Program-made: the position numbers and the translations under genes
Source of the DNA: Halobacteria archaeon HArc-gm2
GTDB lineage: Archaea; Halobacteriota; Halobacteria; Halobacteriales; Haloarculaceae
Direction of reading: 5' to 3'
Assembly: GCA_025517465.1 (NCBI GenBank)
Contig: JAOPKE010000008.1
Span: forward strand, 62,001-126,000
Length of the DNA stretch: 64,000 nt
The notes under the pieces: model-generated
Databases searched by the model: none
Seen by the model: only the letters and a program-made list of their open reading frames with translations
Told to the model about the DNA's origin: nothing
Shown here: piece after piece, positions 47,818-58,677 of the stretch
How positions within the stretch are numbered: the stretch's first letter is position 1
Layout: each line of letters starts with the position of its first letter

Positions 47818-48228
47818 TCACTCGCCGACGACGACGACCTTCACCTGCCGAACGCCCTTCACCGACCGGAGGCGGTTGGCCAGGTCGCTGATCTCGGCCC
47901 CCGGGCCCTCCACCGTGATGGTCTCCATGCAGCGGTGGTGCGAGAGGTGGACGTGCTGGACGGCGGTGATGATGTCCTCCGATTCGTGCTGCAGGCGCTG
48001 GAGCCGGTCGGCCAGGCCGTCGACGTGGTGCTCGTGGATGACCACGAGCGTCCCGTAGTGGGTCTCGCCGTGGTCGCTCTCCCACTCGTAGGCGGTGAAG
48101 AAGTCCCGCAGCGCGTCCCGGACCGCCTCCGACCGGCTGGCGTAGTCCCAGTCCGTCGCGATGTCGTCCAGCCGGTCGGTCATCTCCGGCGGGAGGGTGA
48201 GGCTGATGCGGTCGAGGTCCTCGCTCAT
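47818..48228 (-). CDS. nikR: Nickel-responsive regulator NikR
   Basis: A 136-residue ribbon-helix-helix repressor. Residues 8-45 are the DNA-binding domain (ISLTLPPEMTDRLDDIA, RSEAVRDALRDFF). The C-terminal ACT-like domain keeps the nickel ligands: a His in VIHEHHVDGL and the H-x-H-x5-C set in AVQHVHLSHHRCMETI, equal to His87, His89 and Cys95 of E. coli NikR. It should repress nickel uptake when nickel is plentiful. It is divergent from cbiMNQO; the shared promoter holds a 28-base dyad. The start at 48,228 fits the family length; an open frame extending further upstream is antisense to cbiM. Confidence 0.95.
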   Translation of the reverse strand: MSEDLDRISLTLPPEMTDRLDDIATDWDYASRSEAVRDALRDFFTAYEWESDHGETHYGTLVVIHEHHVDGLADRLQRLQHESEDIITAVQHVHLSHHRCMETITVEGPGAEISDLANRLRSVKGVRQVKVVVVGE

Positions 48229-48274
48229 GCGCTCCCGTTTCGCGCCGGGCGCCAAGAGCCTGTTCCCGGCCCGA

Positions 48275-48302
48275 ATAATACTGCGCGAAGGAAAAGTATT
48301 AT
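48275..48302. promoter_or_regulatory. Candidate NikR operator in the nikR-cbiM divergent promoter
   Basis: ATAATACT (48,275-48,282) and AGTATTAT (48,295-48,302) are perfect inverted repeats separated by 12 bases, 28 bases in all. That equals the overall length of the E. coli NikR site, a 6-16-6 dyad. Each arm is also TATA-like: the right arm is about 26-33 bases before the cbiM ATG, the left arm about 47-54 before nikR. Binding would therefore block both promoters. Confidence 0.7.
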
Positions 48303-48327: not shown

Positions 48328-48969
48328 ATGCACATCCTCGACGGGTTCCTCGACCTGGCGGTCGCTGCCGTCTGTGCGCTGGCGTCGGCCGCGGTGCTCG
48401 CCTACGCGGCCAGACGCGTCGACGGCGAGCTCTCGGACGCCCGGGCGCCGCTGCTGGGTCTCGTCGCCGCGGGTATCTTCGCCGCCCAGATGCTCGACTG
48501 GCCGATCGTGGGCGGCACGAGCGCCCACTTCGTCGGCGGTGCCTTCGCCGCCATCCTGCTGGGCCCCCACCTCGGCGCGCTCTGCGTCGCCACTGTGGTC
48601 ACCGTCCAGGCACTCGTCTTCGGCGACGGCGGCGTCGTCGTCCTCGGCGCGAACGTGTTCAACATGGCCATCGTGGAGGTGTACGTCGGCTACGCTATCT
48701 ACCGGGCCCTCGCGGGCCACCACGAGATCGCCGCGGCCTTCACCGCCGGCTGGCTCGGCATCACGGCGGGCGCGCTCAGCGCGGCGGTCCAGCTGGGCCT
48801 GTCGTCGGCGTTCGCCTACGAACTCGGCACGGTCGTCCTGATCATGGGCGCCGGCCACCTCGCCCTCGGACTGATCGAGGGCGCCATCACGGCCGTCGTC
48901 TACCGCGCCGTCGTCGACGCGCGGCCGGACGTCCTCCCCGCGTCCCCGCTCCGGGAGGTGAAGGCGTGA
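48328..48969 (+). CDS. cbiM: Nickel/cobalt ECF transporter substrate component CbiM (NikM-like)
   Basis: A 213-residue membrane protein with about seven helices. The N terminus MHILDGFLDL places the metal-binding His at position 2, and GTSAHFVGGAFAAILLGPHL provides further His ligands, the hallmark of CbiM/NikM. It binds the divalent cation for the CbiNQO module. The adjacent NikR and downstream urease make nickel the likely metal, although cobalt cannot be excluded by sequence. The ATG at 48,328 follows a TATA-like operator arm and is nearly leaderless. Confidence 0.92.
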   Translation: MHILDGFLDLAVAAVCALASAAVLAYAARRVDGELSDARAPLLGLVAAGIFAAQMLDWPIVGGTSAHFVGGAFAAILLGPHLGALCVATVVTVQALVFGDGGVVVLGANVFNMAIVEVYVGYAIYRALAGHHEIAAAFTAGWLGITAGALSAAVQLGLSSAFAYELGTVVLIMGAGHLALGLIEGAITAVVYRAVVDARPDVLPASPLREVKA

Positions 48970-49262
48970 GCGCTCTCGACCGCTCCTGGTTTCTGAAGGG
49001 GCTCGCGATACTCCTCGTCCTGACCCTCCTCGCCCCGGTGTTCGGCTGGGCTGCCGGGCAAGTGGGCTACGCCGAGCCGCTGGACAACGCCGCCGAGGCG
49101 ACCGGCGCGACCGACGCCGCGGAGACGATCAACCCCGGGCTCATGCCGGACTACGGCGTCCCGGGGCTGGGCTCCGCGTCGGGGACGCTCCTGGCCGCGC
49201 TCATCGGGACCGGACTGACCCTCGTCCTCGCGACGGGCATGGGCCGGGTGCTGGCGGACTGA
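48966..49262 (+). CDS. cbiN: CbiN-like / PDGLE-domain component of the nickel transporter
   Basis: A 98-residue protein with one helix at residues 10-30 and another at 72-92, joined by an external acidic loop (TGATDAAETINPGLMPDYGV). This is the layout of CbiN/PDGLE proteins that assist CbiM loading. It overlaps cbiM by four bases and is followed one base later by cbiQ, so its place in the operon supports the assignment, while residue-level similarity to CbiN is weak. Confidence 0.75.
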   Translation: MSALDRSWFLKGLAILLVLTLLAPVFGWAAGQVGYAEPLDNAAEATGATDAAETINPGLMPDYGVPGLGSASGTLLAALIGTGLTLVLATGMGRVLAD

Positions 49263-49263
49263 G

Positions 49264-50079
49264 ATGGTCGTCGACGCCCTCGACCGCACCGTCTCGACCG
49301 TGAGCGAGCGCGCGACGGCGTTCCTGCTGTCGGCGACCGTCCCCGAACGGGACGGCTTTCTCCAGGCAGTCCACCCCGTCGCCAAGCTCGTGGGCCTGGT
49401 CGCGCTCGTCGTCGTCACCGTCGTCACCGACGACGGCCGCGCCCTCGCCGCGCTGCTCGGCCTCGCCGTCGCACTGGCCCTCGCCTCGCGCGTCCCGGTC
49501 GGCACCTTCGCCGAGCGACTCACCCTGCCGACGCTCCCGTCGCTCCTGGTCGTCGCGCCGCAAGCCGTGCTGATGGACGGCCCAGCGATGGCGACGCTCC
49601 AGCTGCCGGTCGCTTCCCTGACGGTCACCGAACCCGGCGTCGCCTACGTCGTCGCGTTCGCCGTCCGGGTCGCCGCCTGCGTGGGCTTCCTGTCGCTGCT
49701 CTTGCTGACGACGCGCTTTGCCGGCGTGCTGGCCGCGTTCCGCCGGCTCCGCGCGCCACCGCTCGCCATCACGCTCATCGCCGTCACCCACCGGTACCTG
49801 CTGCTGTTCTTCCGGGAGTTGACCAGAATGACGCTCGCCCGGCGGAGCCGCCGGTTCGCACCGGAGTCGCTGCGGTCGTCGTGGCGGACCTCCGGGTCCT
49901 TCCTCGGCACCTTCTTCCTGCGGACGTTCGAGCGAGGCGAGCGCGTCCAGCGCGCCGCGGCCGCCCGCGGCGGCACCCAGATGCGTCCCTACGCCCGGCG
50001 CCAGCCCGTGGGCGTCGCAGACGCCGGATTCGCCGCGGTGGTGGCCCTCGCCGTCGTCGGCCGGGTGATGCTCGCGTGA
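49264..50079 (+). CDS. cbiQ: ECF transporter transmembrane component CbiQ
   Basis: A 271-residue energy-coupling T component with about five to six helices. It has the family's cytosolic arginine-rich coupling segments: ARRSRRFAPESLRSS and ERGERVQRAAAARGG (the A-R-G pattern). It connects CbiM with the ATPase CbiO. Its TGA overlaps the GTG start of cbiO. Confidence 0.9.
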   Translation: MVVDALDRTVSTVSERATAFLLSATVPERDGFLQAVHPVAKLVGLVALVVVTVVTDDGRALAALLGLAVALALASRVPVGTFAERLTLPTLPSLLVVAPQAVLMDGPAMATLQLPVASLTVTEPGVAYVVAFAVRVAACVGFLSLLLLTTRFAGVLAAFRRLRAPPLAITLIAVTHRYLLLFFRELTRMTLARRSRRFAPESLRSSWRTSGSFLGTFFLRTFERGERVQRAAAARGGTQMRPYARRQPVGVADAGFAAVVALAVVGRVMLA

Positions 50080-50879
50080 CGGACCCGGTGATCGAGGCCC
50101 GGAACCTCGCCTACGCGTACCCGGACGGCACGGCCGCCGTCTCGGAGCTCGACGTGTCCATCGGCGCCGGCGAGCGCGTGGCTATCCTCGGCCCGAACGG
50201 CGCCGGGAAGTCGACGCTGTTGCTGTTGCTCGGCGGGTTGCTCGACCCCGACACGGGGACGGTCCGCTTCTTCGGCGAGGACCAGCCCGCAGACGACGTC
50301 CGCGAGCGCATCGGCGTCCTCACCCAGGACCCCGGCGAGTACCTGTTCAACCCCACCGTCCGCGAGGACGTGGAGTACGGCCCCTCGCAGTTCGACCTCC
50401 CGAAGGAGGCGGTCGACGAGCGAGTCAGCGCCCTCGCCGAGCGGTTCGGCCTGACTCACCTGCTGGACCGGCCCCCGTTCCGCCTGTCGGGTGGCGAACA
50501 GCGCCGTGCTGCGCTGGCGAGCGTGCTCTCGTTCGACCCAGAGGTGCTCCTGCTCGACGAGCCCCTCTCGAACGTCGACGGCGCGAACCGGGCGGAACTG
50601 CTGGACCTGCTCGACGACCTCGTCGACGACGGCGTCACGCTCGTCGTCTCGACGCCCGACGCCGACCTCGTCCCCGCGGTCGCGGATCGGGTGATCCTCC
50701 TGGACCGCGAGGGTGAGATCGCCGCCGACGGGCCGACCCGCGAGGTGCTGACCGACGTGGCGTCGCTCCGGCGGGTCGGGCTCTCCGTCCCGACGGTCGT
50801 CGACCTGTTCGACCGGCTGGGAGTGGACGACCCGCCGATTACGATCGACGAAGCGGCCGAGAAACTGGACGATCGGTGA
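50076..50879 (+). CDS. cbiO: ECF transporter ATPase CbiO
   Basis: Starting at the GTG that overlaps the cbiQ stop (GTGA), the protein has 267 residues. Walker A LGPNGAGKSTLLLLLG, Q-loop LTQDPGEYLFNPTVREDVEYG, signature RLSGGEQRRAALASVL, Walker B VLLLDEPLSNVD. The V-x-x-D-V-x-x-G-P sequence after the Q-loop is typical of CbiO/EcfA. It provides energy for nickel import. No ATG start of this frame fits the family. Confidence 0.93.
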   Translation: MTDPVIEARNLAYAYPDGTAAVSELDVSIGAGERVAILGPNGAGKSTLLLLLGGLLDPDTGTVRFFGEDQPADDVRERIGVLTQDPGEYLFNPTVREDVEYGPSQFDLPKEAVDERVSALAERFGLTHLLDRPPFRLSGGEQRRAALASVLSFDPEVLLLDEPLSNVDGANRAELLDLLDDLVDDGVTLVVSTPDADLVPAVADRVILLDREGEIAADGPTREVLTDVASLRRVGLSVPTVVDLFDRLGVDDPPITIDEAAEKLDDR

Positions 50880-51021: not shown

Positions 51022-51429
51022 GTGACCGACCCGTTCGTCCCCGGCGAGGTACGGACGGACGAGGGAACGGTAACTCTCAACGAGGATCGCGAGACGACGA
51101 CGGTCCGCGTCGCGAACACGGGCGACCGGCCCGTCCAGGTCGGCTCGCACTTCCACTTCTTCGAGGTGAACCGGGCGCTGTCGTTCGACCGCGCGGCGGC
51201 CTTCGGGACGCGGCTGAACGTCCCGGCGGGCACCGCGGTCCGGTTCGAACCCGGCGACGAGAAGACGGTCGACCTGGTCGCCGTCGGCGGCGAGGGGCAC
51301 GTCCACGGGATGAACGGCCTGACGAACGGCGACGTCGACGACGCGACGAAGGAGCGCGCACTCCAGCGGGCCCGCGAGCGGGGCTTCGTCGCGGACGAGG
51401 ACTCGACCGAGGGAGGTGAGCAGGCGTGA
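51022..51429 (+). CDS. ureB: Urease beta subunit, copy 1
   Basis: A 135-residue subunit starting at GTG. Landmarks of the family are [37 protein letters not shown] and [19 protein letters not shown]; the trailing 30 residues are acidic. It packs against UreC. It overlaps ureC copy 1 by four bases. A short open frame of 23 codons (50,954-51,025) ends in a TGA overlapping this GTG. It differs in its tail (ends [10 protein letters not shown]) from copy 2. Confidence 0.94.
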
Positions 51430-53132
51430 CCCGCGACGTCGACCGGGAGTCCTACGCCGAGCTGTACGGGCCGGGCGAGGGCGACAGCGTCCGTCTCGGC
51501 GACACCGAGTTATTCGCCGCGGTCGAGCGAGACCTCCGGACGCCGGGCGACGAGGCGGTGTTCGGTGGCGGCAAGACGCTGCGGGACGGCCTGGGGCAGG
51601 CGCCGGGCGTCACCAACGCCGATGGCGCGATGGACTGGGTGATAACGAACGCGACGATCATCGACCCCGTCCTCGGCGTCGTCGCCGCGGACGTCGGTAT
51701 CCGCGACGGGGAGATAGCGGGGGTCGGATCGGCCGGCAACCCTGACACGATGGACGACGTGGACCTGGTCGTCGGCCCCGGCACCGACGTCTATCCCGCC
51801 GAGGGGAAGATCGTCACCCCCGGCGCGCTGGACATCCACGTCCACTTCAACTCCGGCCAGCTGGTCGAGCACGCGCTGGCCTCCGGCGTGACGACGATGC
51901 TCGGCGGCGGCTTCGGCGGCGGCGCGACGACGTGTACGCCCGGGCCACGAAACGTCGAGCTGTTCCTCCGGGCGGCGGAGGAGTGGCCGGTCAACGTCGG
52001 CTTCTACGGGAAGGGCAACGCCTCGAAGCCCGACGCCCTCCAGGAACAGGTCGAGGCGGGCGCCTGCGGGCTGAAGCTTCACGAGGACTGGGGCTCGATG
52101 CCCGAGGCCACCGACACCTGCCTCGACGTCGCCGAGGAGGAAGACGTCCAGGTGTGCATGCACACGGACACGCTCAACGAGGCGGGCTTCGTCGAGAACA
52201 CGTTCGCCGCCCTCGACGGCCGGACGATGCACCTGTTCCACATCGAGGGCGCCGGCGGCGGCCACGCCCCCGACATCATGGCGATGGTCGGCGAGGAGAA
52301 CGTCCTCCCCTCGTCGACCAACCCGTCGATGCCCTACACCGAGAACACCTTCGACGAGCACCTGGACATGGTGATGGTGTGTCACCACCTCAATCCAGAC
52401 GTCCCCGAGGACGTCGCCTTCGCCGAGTCTCGCATCCGCGCCGAGACCATCGCCGCGGAGGACGTCCTCCACGACGAGGGCGCCATCTCGATGATGACGA
52501 CGGACTCCCAGGCGATGGGGCGGATGGCCGAACTGGTCTGTCGAACCTGGCAGACCGCGGACAAGATGAAGCGACAGCGCGGTCCGCTCCCGGAGGACGA
52601 GGGAACCAGCGGCGACAACCACCGGATCAAGCGCTACGTCTCGAAGTACACCATCAACCCCGCCATCGCGGCCGGCATCGACGACTACGTCGGATCGCTC
52701 GAACCGGGCAAGGTCGCCGACCTCGTCCTGTGGGACCCGGCGTTCTTCGGCATCAAGCCCGCGGTGACGTTCAAGGGCGGCTTCCCGGTGTACTCGGAGA
52801 TGGGCGAGGCCAACGGCTCGCTGATGACCTGCCAGCCCATCCAGCAGCGCCCCCGGGCGGGGGCGATGGGGACCGCCAAGCAGGCGACGTCGATGGCGTT
52901 CGTCAGCCAGGCGGCCCACGACGCCGGCGTCGGCGAGGCCTACGACCTCCAGCAGGAGGTAGTCCCGGTCGGCGGCGCGCGCTCGCTCTCGAAGTCGGAC
53001 ATGCACTACAACGACTACTGCCCGGACGACGTCGAGGTGGACCCCGAGACGTTCGAGGTCCGCGTCGACGGCGAGCCGGTCACCTGTGAGCCGGTGGACA
53101 CGGTGTCGCTGGGCCAGCGCTACATGCTGTGA
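51426..53132 (+). CDS. ureC: Urease alpha subunit, copy 1 (catalytic)
   Basis: The 568-residue catalytic subunit hydrolyses urea to ammonia and carbamate at a dinickel site. By my count the residues are His138 and His140 (DIHVHF), carbamylated Lys217 (GLKLHEDWG), His246 (HTDTLNE), His272 ([13 protein letters not shown]), flap Cys319/His320 (VMVCHHLNP) and Asp360 (TTDSQAMGR), all intact. The [10 protein letters not shown] stretch (about 167-176) has the standard form found in most ureases. It is followed by 209 bases before the second ureB, which seems to have its own promoter. Confidence 0.95.
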
Positions 53133-53169
53133 TGGGAGGAACGCCCAGTATCCCGGACACGATCTGGAC

Positions 53170-53179
53170 GTATTTACAC
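53170..53179 (+). promoter_or_regulatory. TATA-like box ahead of second ureBC
   Basis: GTATTTACAC lies in the AT-rich gap after ureC copy 1, in a 209-base intergenic stretch whose lower G+C stands out. It suggests that ureBCAGDEF can be transcribed separately from the first ureBC. No NikR-like dyad is visible here. Confidence 0.35.
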
Positions 53180-53341
53180 TATCCACAAATGTCTTGCCCT
53201 GCCTGAGGAAATAACTCGCTGATAACAACAGATGTTCAACGATAACGCGACATCCACGACCGAGCGATCGAGGCGAGAAACTGGAAGCGATCGGTCGGTG
53301 GATTCGCGGCGGTCGATGCCGGCGGAGTCGCGGAGGTGGGT

Positions 53342-53719
53342 ATGAGCGGCGATCTAGTGCCGGGAGCCATCACCGCGCGCGGGGACGGCGTCCGAATAAA
53401 CGAGGGGCGCGAGACCGCCACGCTCCGCGTCGCGAACACGGGCGACCGGCCGATCCAGGTGGGGTCGCACTTCCACTTCTTCGAGGCGAACCGGGCGCTG
53501 TCCTTCGACCGCGCGGCGGCGTTCGGGATGCGCCTCGACGTCCCCGCCGGCACTGCGGTACGGTTCGAACCCGGTGACGAGAAGACGGTCGACCTGGTCG
53601 CCGTCGGCGGCGCGCAAATCGTGACGGGGATGAACGACCTCACCAACGGGCCGATAGACGAATCGACGAAGGAGCGGGCGCTCGAACGCGCCGCGGCCGC
53701 GGGATTCGAGGGGGCCTGA
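53342..53719 (+). CDS. ureB: Urease beta subunit, copy 2
   Basis: A 125-residue beta subunit (from ATG 53,342; an ATG at 53,336 gives two more residues). It matches copy 1 along most of its length: [56 protein letters not shown]. The loop after that differs ([19 protein letters not shown] against [19 protein letters not shown]), and the tail is shorter. It lies three bases before ureC copy 2. Confidence 0.94.
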
Positions 53720-53722
53720 CCG

Positions 53723-55432
53723 ATGCGTGACCTCTCCCCCGACGAGTACGCGTCCCTCTACGGACCGACGACGGGAGACCGGGTGCGCCTCGCCGACACC
53801 TCCCTCGTCGCCGAGGTCGAAGAGGACCGGATCACCCGCGGCGACGAGACCGTCTTCGGCGGCGGCAAGACGCTCCGCGACGGGATGGGGCTGAAACCGG
53901 GCCACACGGCCGCCGAGGGCGCGCTCGACTGGGTGCTGACGAACCTCACGATCCTCGACCCCGTGCTCGGCGTCTGCAAGGCCGACATCGGGATCAAGGA
54001 CGGGCAGATCGCCGGCGTCGGTAACGCCGGCAACCCGGACACGATGGACGGCGTCGACGAGGACCTGATCGTCAGCGCCAACACCGAGGTCATCTCCGCC
54101 GAGGGGAAGATCGCGACGGCCGGCGGCCTGGACATCCACGTCCACTTCAACTCGGCACAGCTCCCGAAACACGCCATCAGTTCGGGCGTGACGACGATGC
54201 TCGGCGGCGGCGTCGGCCCCTCGACGGTCGGCATCATCACCAGCGGGAAACGGAACCTCGAACTGATGATGAAGGCCGCCGAGGAGTGGCCGCTCAACTT
54301 CGGCTTCTACGGCAAGGGCTCCTCGAACGAACCCGAGGTCATCCGCGAGCAGGTCGCGGGCGGCGCGGTCGCGCTCAAGATCCACGAGGACTGGGGCGCC
54401 ACCCCGGCCGTCATCGACACCTGTCTCGAGGTCGCCGACGAGACCGGCGTCCAGGTCGCCATTCACACGGACACGCTCAACGAGTCCGGCTTCGCCGAGG
54501 ACACCCTCGACGCCATCGACGGCCGGACGCTCCACGCGTACCACGTCGAGGGCGCCGGCGGCGGCCACGCCCCCGACATCATCGAGATCGTCGGGAAGTC
54601 CCACGTGCTCCCGTCGTCGACGAACCCGACGATGCCCTACACCGAGAACACCTTCGAGGAACACCTGGACATGGTGATGGTGTGTCACCACCTCAACCCG
54701 GACGTCCCCGAGGACGTCTCCTTCGCGGAATCACGCGTCAGGACCGAGACCATCGCCGCAGAGGACGTGCTGCACGACCTTGGCGCCATCTCGATGATGA
54801 CGACGGACTCCCAGGCGATGGGACGGATGGGAGAGCTGATCCCGCGCACCTGGCAGACGGCGAGCAAGATGAAGGACCAGCGCGGGCCCCTCGCACTCGA
54901 CGCCGAGGCCGACAACGACAACGAGCGGATCCTGCGCTACCTCGCGAAGTACACCATCAACCCGGCCATCGCGGCCGGTATCGACGACTACGTCGGCTCG
55001 CTCGAACCCGGCAAACTCGCCGACGTCGTGGTGTGGGATCCGGCCTTCTTCGGGATCAAACCCGACGTCGTGATCAAGGGCGGCTTCCCCGCCTGGAGTT
55101 CGATGGGGGAGGCCAACGGCTCGCTGATGACCTGCGAACCGGTCGAGCAGCGCCCGCAGTTCGGCGCGATGGGGCGGGCCGGCGACGCGACCAGCCTCCA
55201 GTTCGTCAGCCCGCAGGCCCACGAGAACGGCCTCGATGAGGCCTACGAGCTACAGAAGGAGGTCGTCCCCGTCGCGGACACGCGCGACCTCTCGACCGAC
55301 GACTTCGTGCGGAACACGTACAGTCCGTCCGTGGACGTCGACCCCGAGACGTTCACCGTCGCGGTCGACGGCGAGCATCTCACGTGCGACGCCGCGGACG
55401 AAGTGGCGCTCGGACAACGGTACCTACTATGA
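53723..55432 (+). CDS. ureC: Urease alpha subunit, copy 2 (catalytic)
   Basis: A 569-residue alpha subunit. Ligands by count: His139, His141, Lys219 (ALKIHEDWG), His248, His274, Cys321/His322 and Asp362, all present. The region at 166-178 reads [13 protein letters not shown] instead of the usual A-T-T-C-T-P-G of copy 1, a clear difference close to the active-site wall. The 4-base overlap with ureA, and the following accessory genes, make this the canonical copy of the operon by position, yet copy 1 is closer to the consensus in that loop. Confidence 0.95.
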
Positions 55433-55815
55433 AACTCAATCCGAAAGACCAGGAACGGCTGACGGTGTTCATGACGGCAGAGCTCGCACGACGGCGCAAG
55501 GACCGCGGCGTCGCGCTGAACTACCCCGAGACGGTGGCGTACATCTCCGACTGGGCGTTCGAACGCGCCCGCGACGGCTGGTCCGTCGCCGAGATCCGGT
55601 CGGAGGCCACGCAGTTGCTCTCCACGGACGACGTGATGGAGGGCGTCCCGTCGATGGTCGACATGATCCAGGTCGAGCCGACGTTCCCCGACGGGACGAA
55701 GCTGGTCACCATCCACGACCCCGTCCGGTCGTCGAGCGCACGCGGGGAGAGCGGCGGCGGTGCGGAGGACGGGACGAACGAGGCCGACGAGTCCGGCGCG
55801 GAGGCCGAGTCGTGA
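55429..55815 (+). CDS. ureA: Urease gamma subunit
   Basis: A 128-residue subunit beginning [20 protein letters not shown], with the family blocks [40 protein letters not shown] and [20 protein letters not shown]. About 27 acidic residues are appended after HDPVRSS. It is the only gamma subunit in the window, so both UreBC pairs must share it. The ATG overlaps the ureC copy 2 stop by four bases; an upstream open frame to 55,384 is not supported. Confidence 0.95.
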
Positions 55816-56435
55816 GCCTCACCCACCGGGACGTCGCCACGGTCGGCATCGGCGGCCCCGTCGGCTCCGGCAAGACCTCGCTGGTCAGCGAACTCGTCCC
55901 GGAACTCGTCGACCGCGGCCTGGACGTGGGCGTCATCGCCAACGACATTCTCACCCAGGAGGACGCCGACGCGCTGCGCGAGCGGTTCGCGGGCATCGTC
56001 CCCGAGGACCTCGTGGCCGGCGTCGAGACCGGCGCCTGCCCGCACACGGGCATCCGCGAGGACCCGTCGATGAACCTCACGCAGATCGACGCGTTTCTGG
56101 CCGACCACCCCGACCTGGACCTCGTCCTGATCGAGAGCGGCGGCGACAACCTCGCGGCGACGTTCAACCCCGAACTCGCCGACTACTCGCTGTACGTCAT
56201 CAGCGTGGCGGAGGGCGAGGACATCCCGCGCAAGCGCGGCCCTGGTGTCGTCGACTGCGACCTCCTGGTGATCAACAAGACCGACCTCGCCCCCCACGTC
56301 GGCGCGGACCTGGACGTCATGAAGGAAGACGCCGAATCGGTGCGAGAGGGGCCGTTCGTCACCACGAACTGCAAGACCGGCGAGGGGGTCGAATCGGTCC
56401 TCGAACACGTCACCGAGGGGGTCCTGTTCGCGTAG
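55812..56435 (+). CDS. ureG: Urease accessory GTPase UreG
   Basis: A 207-residue GTPase starting at GTG (GTGA overlap with ureA). P-loop [18 protein letters not shown], the UreG-specific [18 protein letters not shown] (metal-binding Cys-Pro-His), [11 protein letters not shown] and the guanine-specificity motif [15 protein letters not shown]. UreG drives nickel insertion into urease with UreD and UreF. Confidence 0.96.
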
Positions 56436-57356
56436 ATGGCCGCCGACGCCCCCCACCCCGCGTTCGAACCGTACGCGGCCGAACCGGTCCCGCAGGCCCC
56501 CGTCGGCGCGCCGGGCAAGGAGGGCCGGCTGGAACTGGCCTTCGCCGCCGACGAGGACGGCCAGACCCACCTCGTCCGCGACTTCGCCCGGGTTCCCTTC
56601 CACCTGAGCGGGACGCTCGGCCACGATCCACACCCCGACGCAGAGACCGTGTTCGTCCAGTCGCCCAGCGGCGGCGTCGCCCAGGGCGACCGCCACACCA
56701 TCGACGTCGAAGTGAAAAACGGCGGCGTCGCCCACGTCACCACCGGGAGTTCGACGAAGGTGCTCACGATGGAGCGCAACTACGCCGCCGCGGACGTCTC
56801 GCTCTCGGTGGGTTCGGGGAGCCACCTCGACTACGTGCCCGAACCAGTGATCGTCAATCCCGACGCGCGATACTACCAGGAGCTACGCCTGGACGTGGCG
56901 CCCGACGCGACGGCCGTCGTCGGCGACGTCGTCGTCCCCGGGCGTCTGGCCCGCGGCGAACGGTTCGACTTCGAACGCTACGTCTCCCGGTTGGCGTGCC
57001 ACAGCGACGGCGACCTGCTGTTCGAGGACGCGACGCACCTGACGCCGGCCGACGGCGACCCGACCGCCCCCGGCGTGATGGGCGAGTATTCGGTGTACGG
57101 GACGCTGTTCGTCGTCGCGCCCGAGCGCGACGGGGACGCCCTGTCGGACGCGATTCACGACCGGGTCACCGAGCGGACTGAAGCCGGGGAATCGAACGCC
57201 CGCGCCGCGGCGACGACGCTCCCGAACGACGCGGGCGTCGTCGTCCGCGCGCTCGGCCACCGGGCCGAGGACGTCACCGGGTTGCTGCACGCGGCCTGGG
57301 ACGAGGCGCGAAGCGAGTTGCTCGACGTCGGCGCCCCCGACGGGAGGAAGCTCTGA
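56436..57356 (+). CDS. ureD: Urease accessory protein UreD
   Basis: A 306-residue UreD/UreH-type protein. It contains QSPSGGVAQGDRHTIDVEVK, VTTGSSTKVLTME and YVPEPVIVNPDARYYQEL, the typical order for the family, which binds apo-urease and recruits UreF/UreG. It directly follows ureG with no gap. The ending has an acidic/Ala-rich stretch and HAAWDEARSELLDVGAP, similar to other haloarchaeal forms. Confidence 0.93.
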   Translation: MAADAPHPAFEPYAAEPVPQAPVGAPGKEGRLELAFAADEDGQTHLVRDFARVPFHLSGTLGHDPHPDAETVFVQSPSGGVAQGDRHTIDVEVKNGGVAHVTTGSSTKVLTMERNYAAADVSLSVGSGSHLDYVPEPVIVNPDARYYQELRLDVAPDATAVVGDVVVPGRLARGERFDFERYVSRLACHSDGDLLFEDATHLTPADGDPTAPGVMGEYSVYGTLFVVAPERDGDALSDAIHDRVTERTEAGESNARAAATTLPNDAGVVVRALGHRAEDVTGLLHAAWDEARSELLDVGAPDGRKL

Positions 57357-57973
57357 TGCTCGTCGCCGACAGCTACGTCGGGAACGTCGACGAGGACTCG
57401 GACCTCGCCGAACGCCTCGACGCCGAGGACGCGCTCACCGTCACCGTCGGCGAGACGGAGCGCCGACGTTCCCGCTTTCGCACGACGGGCGACGACGGCA
57501 CCGACCTCGGCGTGGTCGTCGGGCGCGAACTCCGGGCGGGCGACGTCCTCTCGGCCGACGGACGGCTCGTTACGGTCTCGCTCGAACCGGTCGACGCGAT
57601 GGTGGTCGACCTCGGCGGCGTCGACGCCGATTCGGCCGCGGTCGCGACCGCGCTCGAACTCGGCCACGCCGTCGGCAACCGGCACTGGGATCTGGCCGTC
57701 GAGGGCCAGCGGGCCTACCTCCCGATGGCCGATTCCCGCGAGCGGATGGAAGCCGAGCTCGAACCCCATCTGCCCCAGGGCGCAACGATCGGCTACGACG
57801 AGGTGAGTCCCGCGCTGTTCGACGAGGGCAGTGGTGGTGGGCACGGTCACGAAGACGGTGGTCACTCGCACAGTCACGGCGACGGCGGCCACTCTCACGA
57901 CCACTCGCACGGACACGACGGCCACAGCCACGCCCACGGCGTCAGAGAGGTCGACCCGGAGGGATCGTCGTGA
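57356..57973 (+). CDS. ureE: Urease accessory protein UreE (nickel chaperone)
   Basis: A 205-residue chaperone. The N-terminal UreE peptide-binding-like domain (about 1-75) and the nickel-binding C-terminal domain (LELGHAVGNRHWDLAVEGQR, with the conserved HAVGNRH region) are followed by a His/Gly tail (residues about 157-195, repeated HSHSHGDGG-type units). The tail likely stores or sequesters nickel. It overlaps ureD by one base. Confidence 0.94.
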   Translation: MLVADSYVGNVDEDSDLAERLDAEDALTVTVGETERRRSRFRTTGDDGTDLGVVVGRELRAGDVLSADGRLVTVSLEPVDAMVVDLGGVDADSAAVATALELGHAVGNRHWDLAVEGQRAYLPMADSRERMEAELEPHLPQGATIGYDEVSPALFDEGSGGGHGHEDGGHSHSHGDGGHSHDHSHGHDGHSHAHGVREVDPEGSS

Positions 57974-58677
57974 GCGACGAGTCGACGCTGGCGGCGCTCC
58001 GGCTGGCCGACTCGGCGCTCCCTGTTGGGACCGACAGCGTCTCCTACGGCCTGGAGCAGTTCGTCGCCGAGGACCGCGTCGAGGACGCCGAAGACCTCCG
58101 AGCCCTCCTGGAGACGTACCTCCGCCGTCAGCTCGGCGTCGCAGACCTGGTTGCGCTCCGGGTGGCTCACGAGGGTGCGACAGGGGGTGAGGATGGCACC
58201 GAGGACGACGTCGACGCGGTCGTGGCGGCCGACCGGCGGCTGTCGGCGACGACGCTGACCGCGGAGTTCCGCGAGAGTTCCACGCGGACGGGCGAGCGGC
58301 TGCTCTCCCTCCAGCGCGAGTTGCGTGACGACACAGTTCTCGACGAGTACGCCGCCGCGGTCGAGGCGGGCGACGCGCCCGGGAACCACGCCGTCGTCCT
58401 GGGTGCGGTCGCCGGCCGCGACGGGGTCGACGCCGACGAGGCGTGCCTGGTGGCCTGTCACGGGTTCGTGACCGGCCTGCTCGGCGCCGCCCAGCGACTC
58501 CTGCGTCTCGGCCACACCGACGTCCAGCGGACGGTCGACGAGTTGCGGCCGGTGATGACGACCGCAGTCGAGGACAGCGCCGACCGCTCGCTCGACGAGA
58601 TGGAGCCGTTCGCGCCGCTCGTCGACGTGGCGTCGGCCGACCACGAGCGCGCCGACCGGCGGCTGTTCGTCAGCTGA
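57970..58677 (+). CDS. ureF: Urease accessory protein UreF
   Basis: A 235-residue, all-helical protein starting at GTG (GTGA overlap with ureE). Typical features are LRLADSALPVGTDSVSYGLE near the start and GNHAVVLGAVAGRDG plus FVTGLLGAAQRLLRLGHTDV in the middle. UreF bridges UreD-urease and UreG. Last gene of the urease operon. Confidence 0.93.
   Translation: MSDESTLAALRLADSALPVGTDSVSYGLEQFVAEDRVEDAEDLRALLETYLRRQLGVADLVALRVAHEGATGGEDGTEDDVDAVVAADRRLSATTLTAEFRESSTRTGERLLSLQRELRDDTVLDEYAAAVEAGDAPGNHAVVLGAVAGRDGVDADEACLVACHGFVTGLLGAAQRLLRLGHTDVQRTVDELRPVMTTAVEDSADRSLDEMEPFAPLVDVASADHERADRRLFVS

Follow-up and report, generated by a model that had tools for sequence, protein, structure and literature searches.

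The interval between two divergently transcribed genes, that of the regulator NikR and nikM (cbiM), the first gene of a nickel importer, carries a perfect A/T-rich inverted repeat in the stretch of DNA analysed here (64,000 nucleotides, hereafter the window). Two questions are raised by this locus: which protein would recognize such a repeat, and which of the two genes would be controlled through it?

The nikR-nikM interval

The dyad, ATAATACTGCGCGAAGGAAAAGTATTAT, consists of two perfect 8-base arms, ATAATACT and AGTATTAT, separated by a 12-base spacer, 28 bases in total (Table 1). The window letters agree exactly with the sequence and the coordinates (48275-48302) given in an earlier note on this DNA. 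The distance to the ATG is 46 bp on the nikR side and 25 bp on the nikM side.

Table 1. Features of the nikR-nikM interval and of the flanking genes, in window coordinates
Feature	Position	Strand	Remarks
nikR	47818..48228	-	136 aa, RHH + NikR_C; DNA-reading strand R7-S9-T11; nickel ligands H81, H92, H94, C100
nikR's own TATA position	48252..48258	-	weak here; -24 to -30 from the nikR ATG
Proposed NikR operator, 28-bp dyad	48275..48302		7-mer reading ATAATAC-N14-GTATTAT, from conservation
nikR-side arm ATAATACT	48275..48282		putative operator half-site only; family consensus RTAWTACT
BRE-like purine-rich stretch GAAGGAAA of the nikM promoter	48287..48294	+	in the dyad spacer; spacer positions 17-20 mostly A (51 rows)
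nikM-side arm AGTATTAT	48295..48302	+	putative half-site coinciding in part with the TATA box of nikM; 25 bp from the nikM ATG
nikM (cbiM)	48328..48969	+	importer operon gene 1; PF01891 CbiM (P0003)
nikN	48966..49262	+	PDGLE domain, CbiN-like; PF13190, weak CbiN models
nikQ (cbiQ)	49264..50079	+	PF02361; TIGR02454
nikO (cbiO)	50076..50879	+	ABC ATPase; PF00005, ECF ATPase models
Urease cluster	51022..58677	+	ureB, ureC, second ureB, second ureC, ureA, ureG, ureD, ureE, ureF

The nikR product (P0002) matches PF08753 NikR_C and RHH_1 and scores above the cutoff of the NCBIfam NikR equivalog. It shows the organization of the family, with an N-terminal RHH, a C-terminal NikR_C and a His/His/His/Cys nickel site. 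Its closest solved structures are NikR proteins: the best is 2bj1, which we take to be NikR of Pyrococcus horikoshii, followed by those of H. pylori and E. coli. Pfam and NCBIfam domain matches show that the earlier calls of nikR and cbiM were right. On the other side of the dyad, the importer operon may run on into the urease genes, and the urease cluster downstream is the user of the imported nickel; the names nik, rather than cbi, seem appropriate from this genomic context. The identity of ureG was read from its translation. In the urease cluster itself, two tandem ureB-ureC (beta-alpha) pairs (window 51022-55432) are followed by only one ureA and by the accessory genes.

Conservation of the dyad and its association with NikR

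We examined the dyad in a sample of 392 genomes of the same order, taken to be haloarchaea from the proteins they encode and their base composition. True NikR orthologs, defined by at least 44% identity with E < 1e-30, were found in 64 genomes (tally from the search table), and both the DNA-reading residues R7, S9 and T11 and the nickel ligands H81, H92, H94 and C100 were invariant in 64/64 orthologs. A separate NikR-like family of about 30% identity was nearly ubiquitous in the 392 genomes.

Inspection of the regions upstream of the true nikR genes revealed the dyad at every locus where nikM is divergent from nikR. The profile obtained from 51 rows, one genome being represented twice, reads [AG]TA[AT]TAC-N14-GTATTAT, i.e. 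RTAWTAC-N14-GTATTAT. The left arm was invariant at T-A-x-T-A in 51/51 rows and the right arm nearly so, with variable flanks and a half-site spacing constant at 14. The dyad has thus passed the check proposed in the earlier note, its conservation upstream of nikR/cbiM in relatives.

Presence of the dyad followed that of the regulator. Each of the 52 genomes that encode both NikR and a NikM ortholog carried it upstream of nikM, versus none of the 13 NikR-negative ones with NikM (Fisher 6e-14), counts which are not independent since the genomes are related by descent. The 13 NikR-less genomes carry a NikM ortholog at 54-63% identity and no true NikR; 12 of these NikMs were placed on the tree and formed one clade (12/12, support 0.92), so that few independent events are represented. 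Genome-wide, the strict motif was detected in 56/64 NikR-positive genomes versus 5/328 other genomes of the order (Fisher 6e-53). Among the eight NikR-positive genomes where it is missing, relaxed or flipped forms were observed in five (G003, G112, G010, G023 and G054), and no dyad was seen near nikR in the other three (G174, G247 and G348). Finally, in two genomes (G129 and G170; L145, L146) nikR is located about 240 kb from nikM and the full dyad is still at nikM.

Dyads in front of other transporter genes

The dyad was also observed 24-30 bp before genes for Peripla_BP_2-type lipoproteins, at 12 loci in 12 genomes (L131-L135, L137, L138, L140-L143 and L051), four of these 12 lipoproteins being covered by the Pfam scan. 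By profile, the corresponding ABC systems look iron/siderophore-like. Those preceded by the dyad are likely unrecognised nickel importers, and the dyad would provide a means of assigning uncharacterised binding-protein ABC systems to nickel import. In G003, a genome without a NikM match, the dyad lies 26 bp before a gene for a His-rich NicO-type permease (L144, gene on the minus strand), an assignment slightly below the Pfam cutoff (E 7e-6). It is located between nikR and two genes for BPD-type (peptide/nickel-type) permeases in G315 (L068), and flipped half-sites were found before a ZnuA-like gene in two genomes (L052, L053). These promoters have no homology to the nikM promoter, and a dyad shared with it argues strongly for regulation by one common protein. 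The dyads L136 and L147 of the relaxed scan were discarded as operators, not being located at promoters.

The dyad very probably represents the haloarchaeal NikR operator at the nikMNQO promoter, including shut-off of the importer at sufficient nickel. The earlier note had proposed such an operator, and the proposal is upheld by comparison of sequences: the dyad tracks NikR presence, stays at a distant nikM and recurs before unrelated nickel importers. Control of nickel uptake by NikR via the dyad is well supported on these grounds.

Overlap with the nikM promoter and possible control of nikR

In haloarchaea the TATA core is TTWT and the BRE is CGAAA, with mostly leaderless transcription (PMC4983044). 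The GTATTAT arm stops 24-29 bp short of the nikM ATG and has A-rich DNA ahead of it, the arrangement of a TATA/BRE core promoter spaced normally from a leaderless start, and conservation of this arm taken alone could be explained by TATA function. The situation is different on the nikR side. In the nikR upstream rows (n=65), A/T predominates in a block from -28 to -25 and again in the pair of positions -11/-10, and no fixed distance links the left arm to the nikR start: the dyad lies at a variable 35-147 bp from the nikR ATG, whereas its distance to nikM is fixed at 24-29 bp. In addition, of the 13 nikR loci where no neighbouring nikM was detected, eight had no dyad at nikR (L030, L037, L041, L044, L050, L057, L066 and L069). 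The separate A/T block, the variable distance and the dyad-free loci together indicate that the left arm is not the TATA box of nikR. Accordingly, the description of each arm as TATA-like holds for the nikM-side arm, which is correctly placed, and fails for the nikR-side arm as a TATA box of nikR.

The same observations bear on the model of the earlier note, in which both divergent genes would be shut by a single NikR site. Some effect on nikR is possible in the window since the dyad is close to its promoter, starting near enough to the nikR ATG to interfere, and in a distant relative (L199) a related dyad is found directly before nikR. However, the distance from dyad to nikR is not conserved and eight of the 13 nikR loci discussed above lack the dyad; such autoregulation is therefore doubtful. 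The idea that one site shuts both genes is not supported, nikR having its own TATA. Control at one site survives for nickel uptake and is left without support for nikR, whose repression through the common site would be, judging from these comparisons, at most occasional.

It is highly improbable that the dyad merely consists of two back-to-back TATA boxes, belonging to divergent nikR and nikM promoters, with symmetry as a by-product. The nikM-side arm does make a good TATA box, correctly spaced from the ATG and adjoined by a spacer that resembles a BRE, and both arms are A/T-rich within a G+C-rich genome. But the left arm is kept without an evident divergent gene (L145, L146 and most of the FecB-like loci, L131-L143), the spacing remains fixed at 14 while the nikR distance varies, and NikR-less genomes retain nikM, not the dyad. 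We rejected this explanation on the basis of the dyads at non-divergent genes and of the separate nikR TATA at -28 to -25.

Other regulators and chance repeats

Another regulator could also be considered as the protein binding the dyad, for example the NikR-like paralog of nearly all sampled haloarchaea. One such paralog is encoded at L002 1492-1908 (G000 C11:312536-312901), with RHH and NikR_C domains, apparently intact nickel ligands and a different DNA-reading strand. The paralog is present in the home genome, and the NikR domain and the nickel-ligand pattern are kept in it. Its reading strand is VSISMP versus RISLTLP in NikR, however, and a match to the NikR family (E <=1e-10) occurs in 380/392 genomes, whereas the strict dyad is found in 61, of which 56 possess a true NikR. 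Control by the paralog was rejected owing to this discrepancy between the distribution of the family and that of the strict dyad, and we consider it highly improbable.

That the dyad is a chance inverted repeat can be practically dismissed: perfect 8-bp inverted repeats of any kind number 95 in the window, but no other among them is A/T-rich (0.1 expected), and dozens of genomes keep the dyad at a constant position in the promoter. More precisely, it is the sole perfect 8-bp inverted repeat of the 64-kb window with arms of at least six A/T (gap 3-25); dinucleotide shuffles gave 0.1 A/T-rich 8-bp repeats on average and none with a gap of 12. No copies of the dyad with up to three mismatches are expected by chance. 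A second exact match to dyad-related patterns was not found in the 4.25-Mb genome, where the dyad is thus single copy. Three one-mismatch matches beyond the operator were considered as additional sites in the home genome; this number equals the control level and none is credible.

Proposed mechanism

A simple model of the dyad as NikR operator would be the following. When nickel is sufficient, the Ni(II)-loaded NikR tetramer would set its two RHH dimers on RTAWTAC and GTATTAT, which, with 21 bp between their centres or close to two helical turns, lie on the same face. As the half-site on the nikM side serves as TATA box and the BRE lies in the spacer, bound NikR would cover both and exclude TBP/TFB, and transcription of the importer would stop. 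When nickel is scarce, NikR would leave, allowing expression of nikMNQO and supply of the adjacent urease. The gene nikR, on its own promoter, is probably not strongly controlled through the dyad. Direct binding of NikR, its nickel dependence and repression by TBP exclusion are all predicted here.

In a broader form, haloarchaea would possess one NikR (R-S-T) and one new operator, RTAWTAC-N14-GTATTAT, with a half-site that is at the same time the TATA box of the target. This module could be moved among unrelated importer families and act by TBP exclusion, with nikR mostly outside its own regulon. We lean towards this wider scheme with some reserve. The half-site coinciding with a TATA box offers a clean case of a metal-sensing repressor versus TBP/TFB in a tractable archaeon. 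A nickel regulon can be predicted in dozens of genomes, and the recognition sequence for haloarchaeal NikR is now testable.

Relation to known NikR operators

The dyad has the geometry taken here for NikR operators, which are inverted repeats 27-28 bp long whose 6-7-bp half-sites are separated by roughly two helical turns: it measures 28 bp, with 7-mer arms and N14. The operator of E. coli nikABCDE, GTATGA-N16-TCATAC, is also 28 bp long (PMC7055735), so the equal total length stated in the earlier note is correct. Both are inverted repeats for repression of nickel uptake by NikR, predicted in the case of the dyad, but they differ in half-site bases, in promoter type (bacterial in E. coli) and in the transporter. 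The E. coli half-site GTATGA/TCATAC is not matched by the dyad, whose half-site is RTAWTAC; it is not required for membership of the class, because NikR half-sites differ between lineages (PMC545781).

For delta-proteobacterial nikMNQO, the predicted NikR operator is GTGTTAC-[N13/14]-GTAACAC (Rodionov 2004, PMC545781). Regulator family, nikMNQO target, 7-base half-sites, N14 and the GTnnTAC pattern are shared with the dyad, and flipped half-sites occur in both. The haloarchaeal half-site has AWT at its centre (GTAWTAC) instead of GTT, and overlaps archaeal TATA and BRE. The NikR sites of H. pylori have 11 bp between two half-sites of 7 bp (PMC4464171). They resemble the dyad as A/T-rich partial palindromes and are found at nickel-uptake and urease genes, but their spacing is shorter, and H. 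pylori NikR also activates (ureA). Eight methanogen genomes are likewise reported to contain predicted NikR sites (Rodionov 2006, as cited in PMC10617489), with archaeal NikR and nikMNQO targets in common with the dyad.

The claim of a new archaeal recognition sequence can thus be kept in part. The bases do differ from those of E. coli, but the motif is near the delta-proteobacterial one (PMC545781), and methanogen sites, as described in the citing paper, had been predicted in 2006 (PMC10617489). A description of a haloarchaeal NikR site was not found in the accessible literature, the 2006 methanogen motif standing outside this comparison. From its sequence the dyad would belong to a known class, the NikR operators, with a lineage-specific half-site, rather than to a new kind of system.

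Related sequences in other genomes

Related dyads were also observed in three archaea more remote within the phylum, one preceding nikR (L199), one a gene resembling cbiM and one the gene of a binding protein. The phylum-wide scan, performed with a single consensus, gave sites in 13/60 genomes; only three being clearly at nickel genes, we do not claim a general archaeal motif.

A perfect GTATTAC-N14-GTAATAC, likewise from the relaxed scan, was observed in a NikR-positive genome 29 bp before an acetyltransferase-like gene (L139 3526-3553). About 16 bp from the main dyad in the direction of nikR, genus g3 has an additional GGTAATACTC half-site (L014-L017, L019-L021, L023-L025, L027-L029, L032 and L036), which may give NikR a third contact or take part in the control of nikR. 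Finally, dyad-less cbiM copies of two genomes (L157 and L164) have another sequence, AGATTATGATT...TATATATC, in common at their promoters, on which a different regulator may act.
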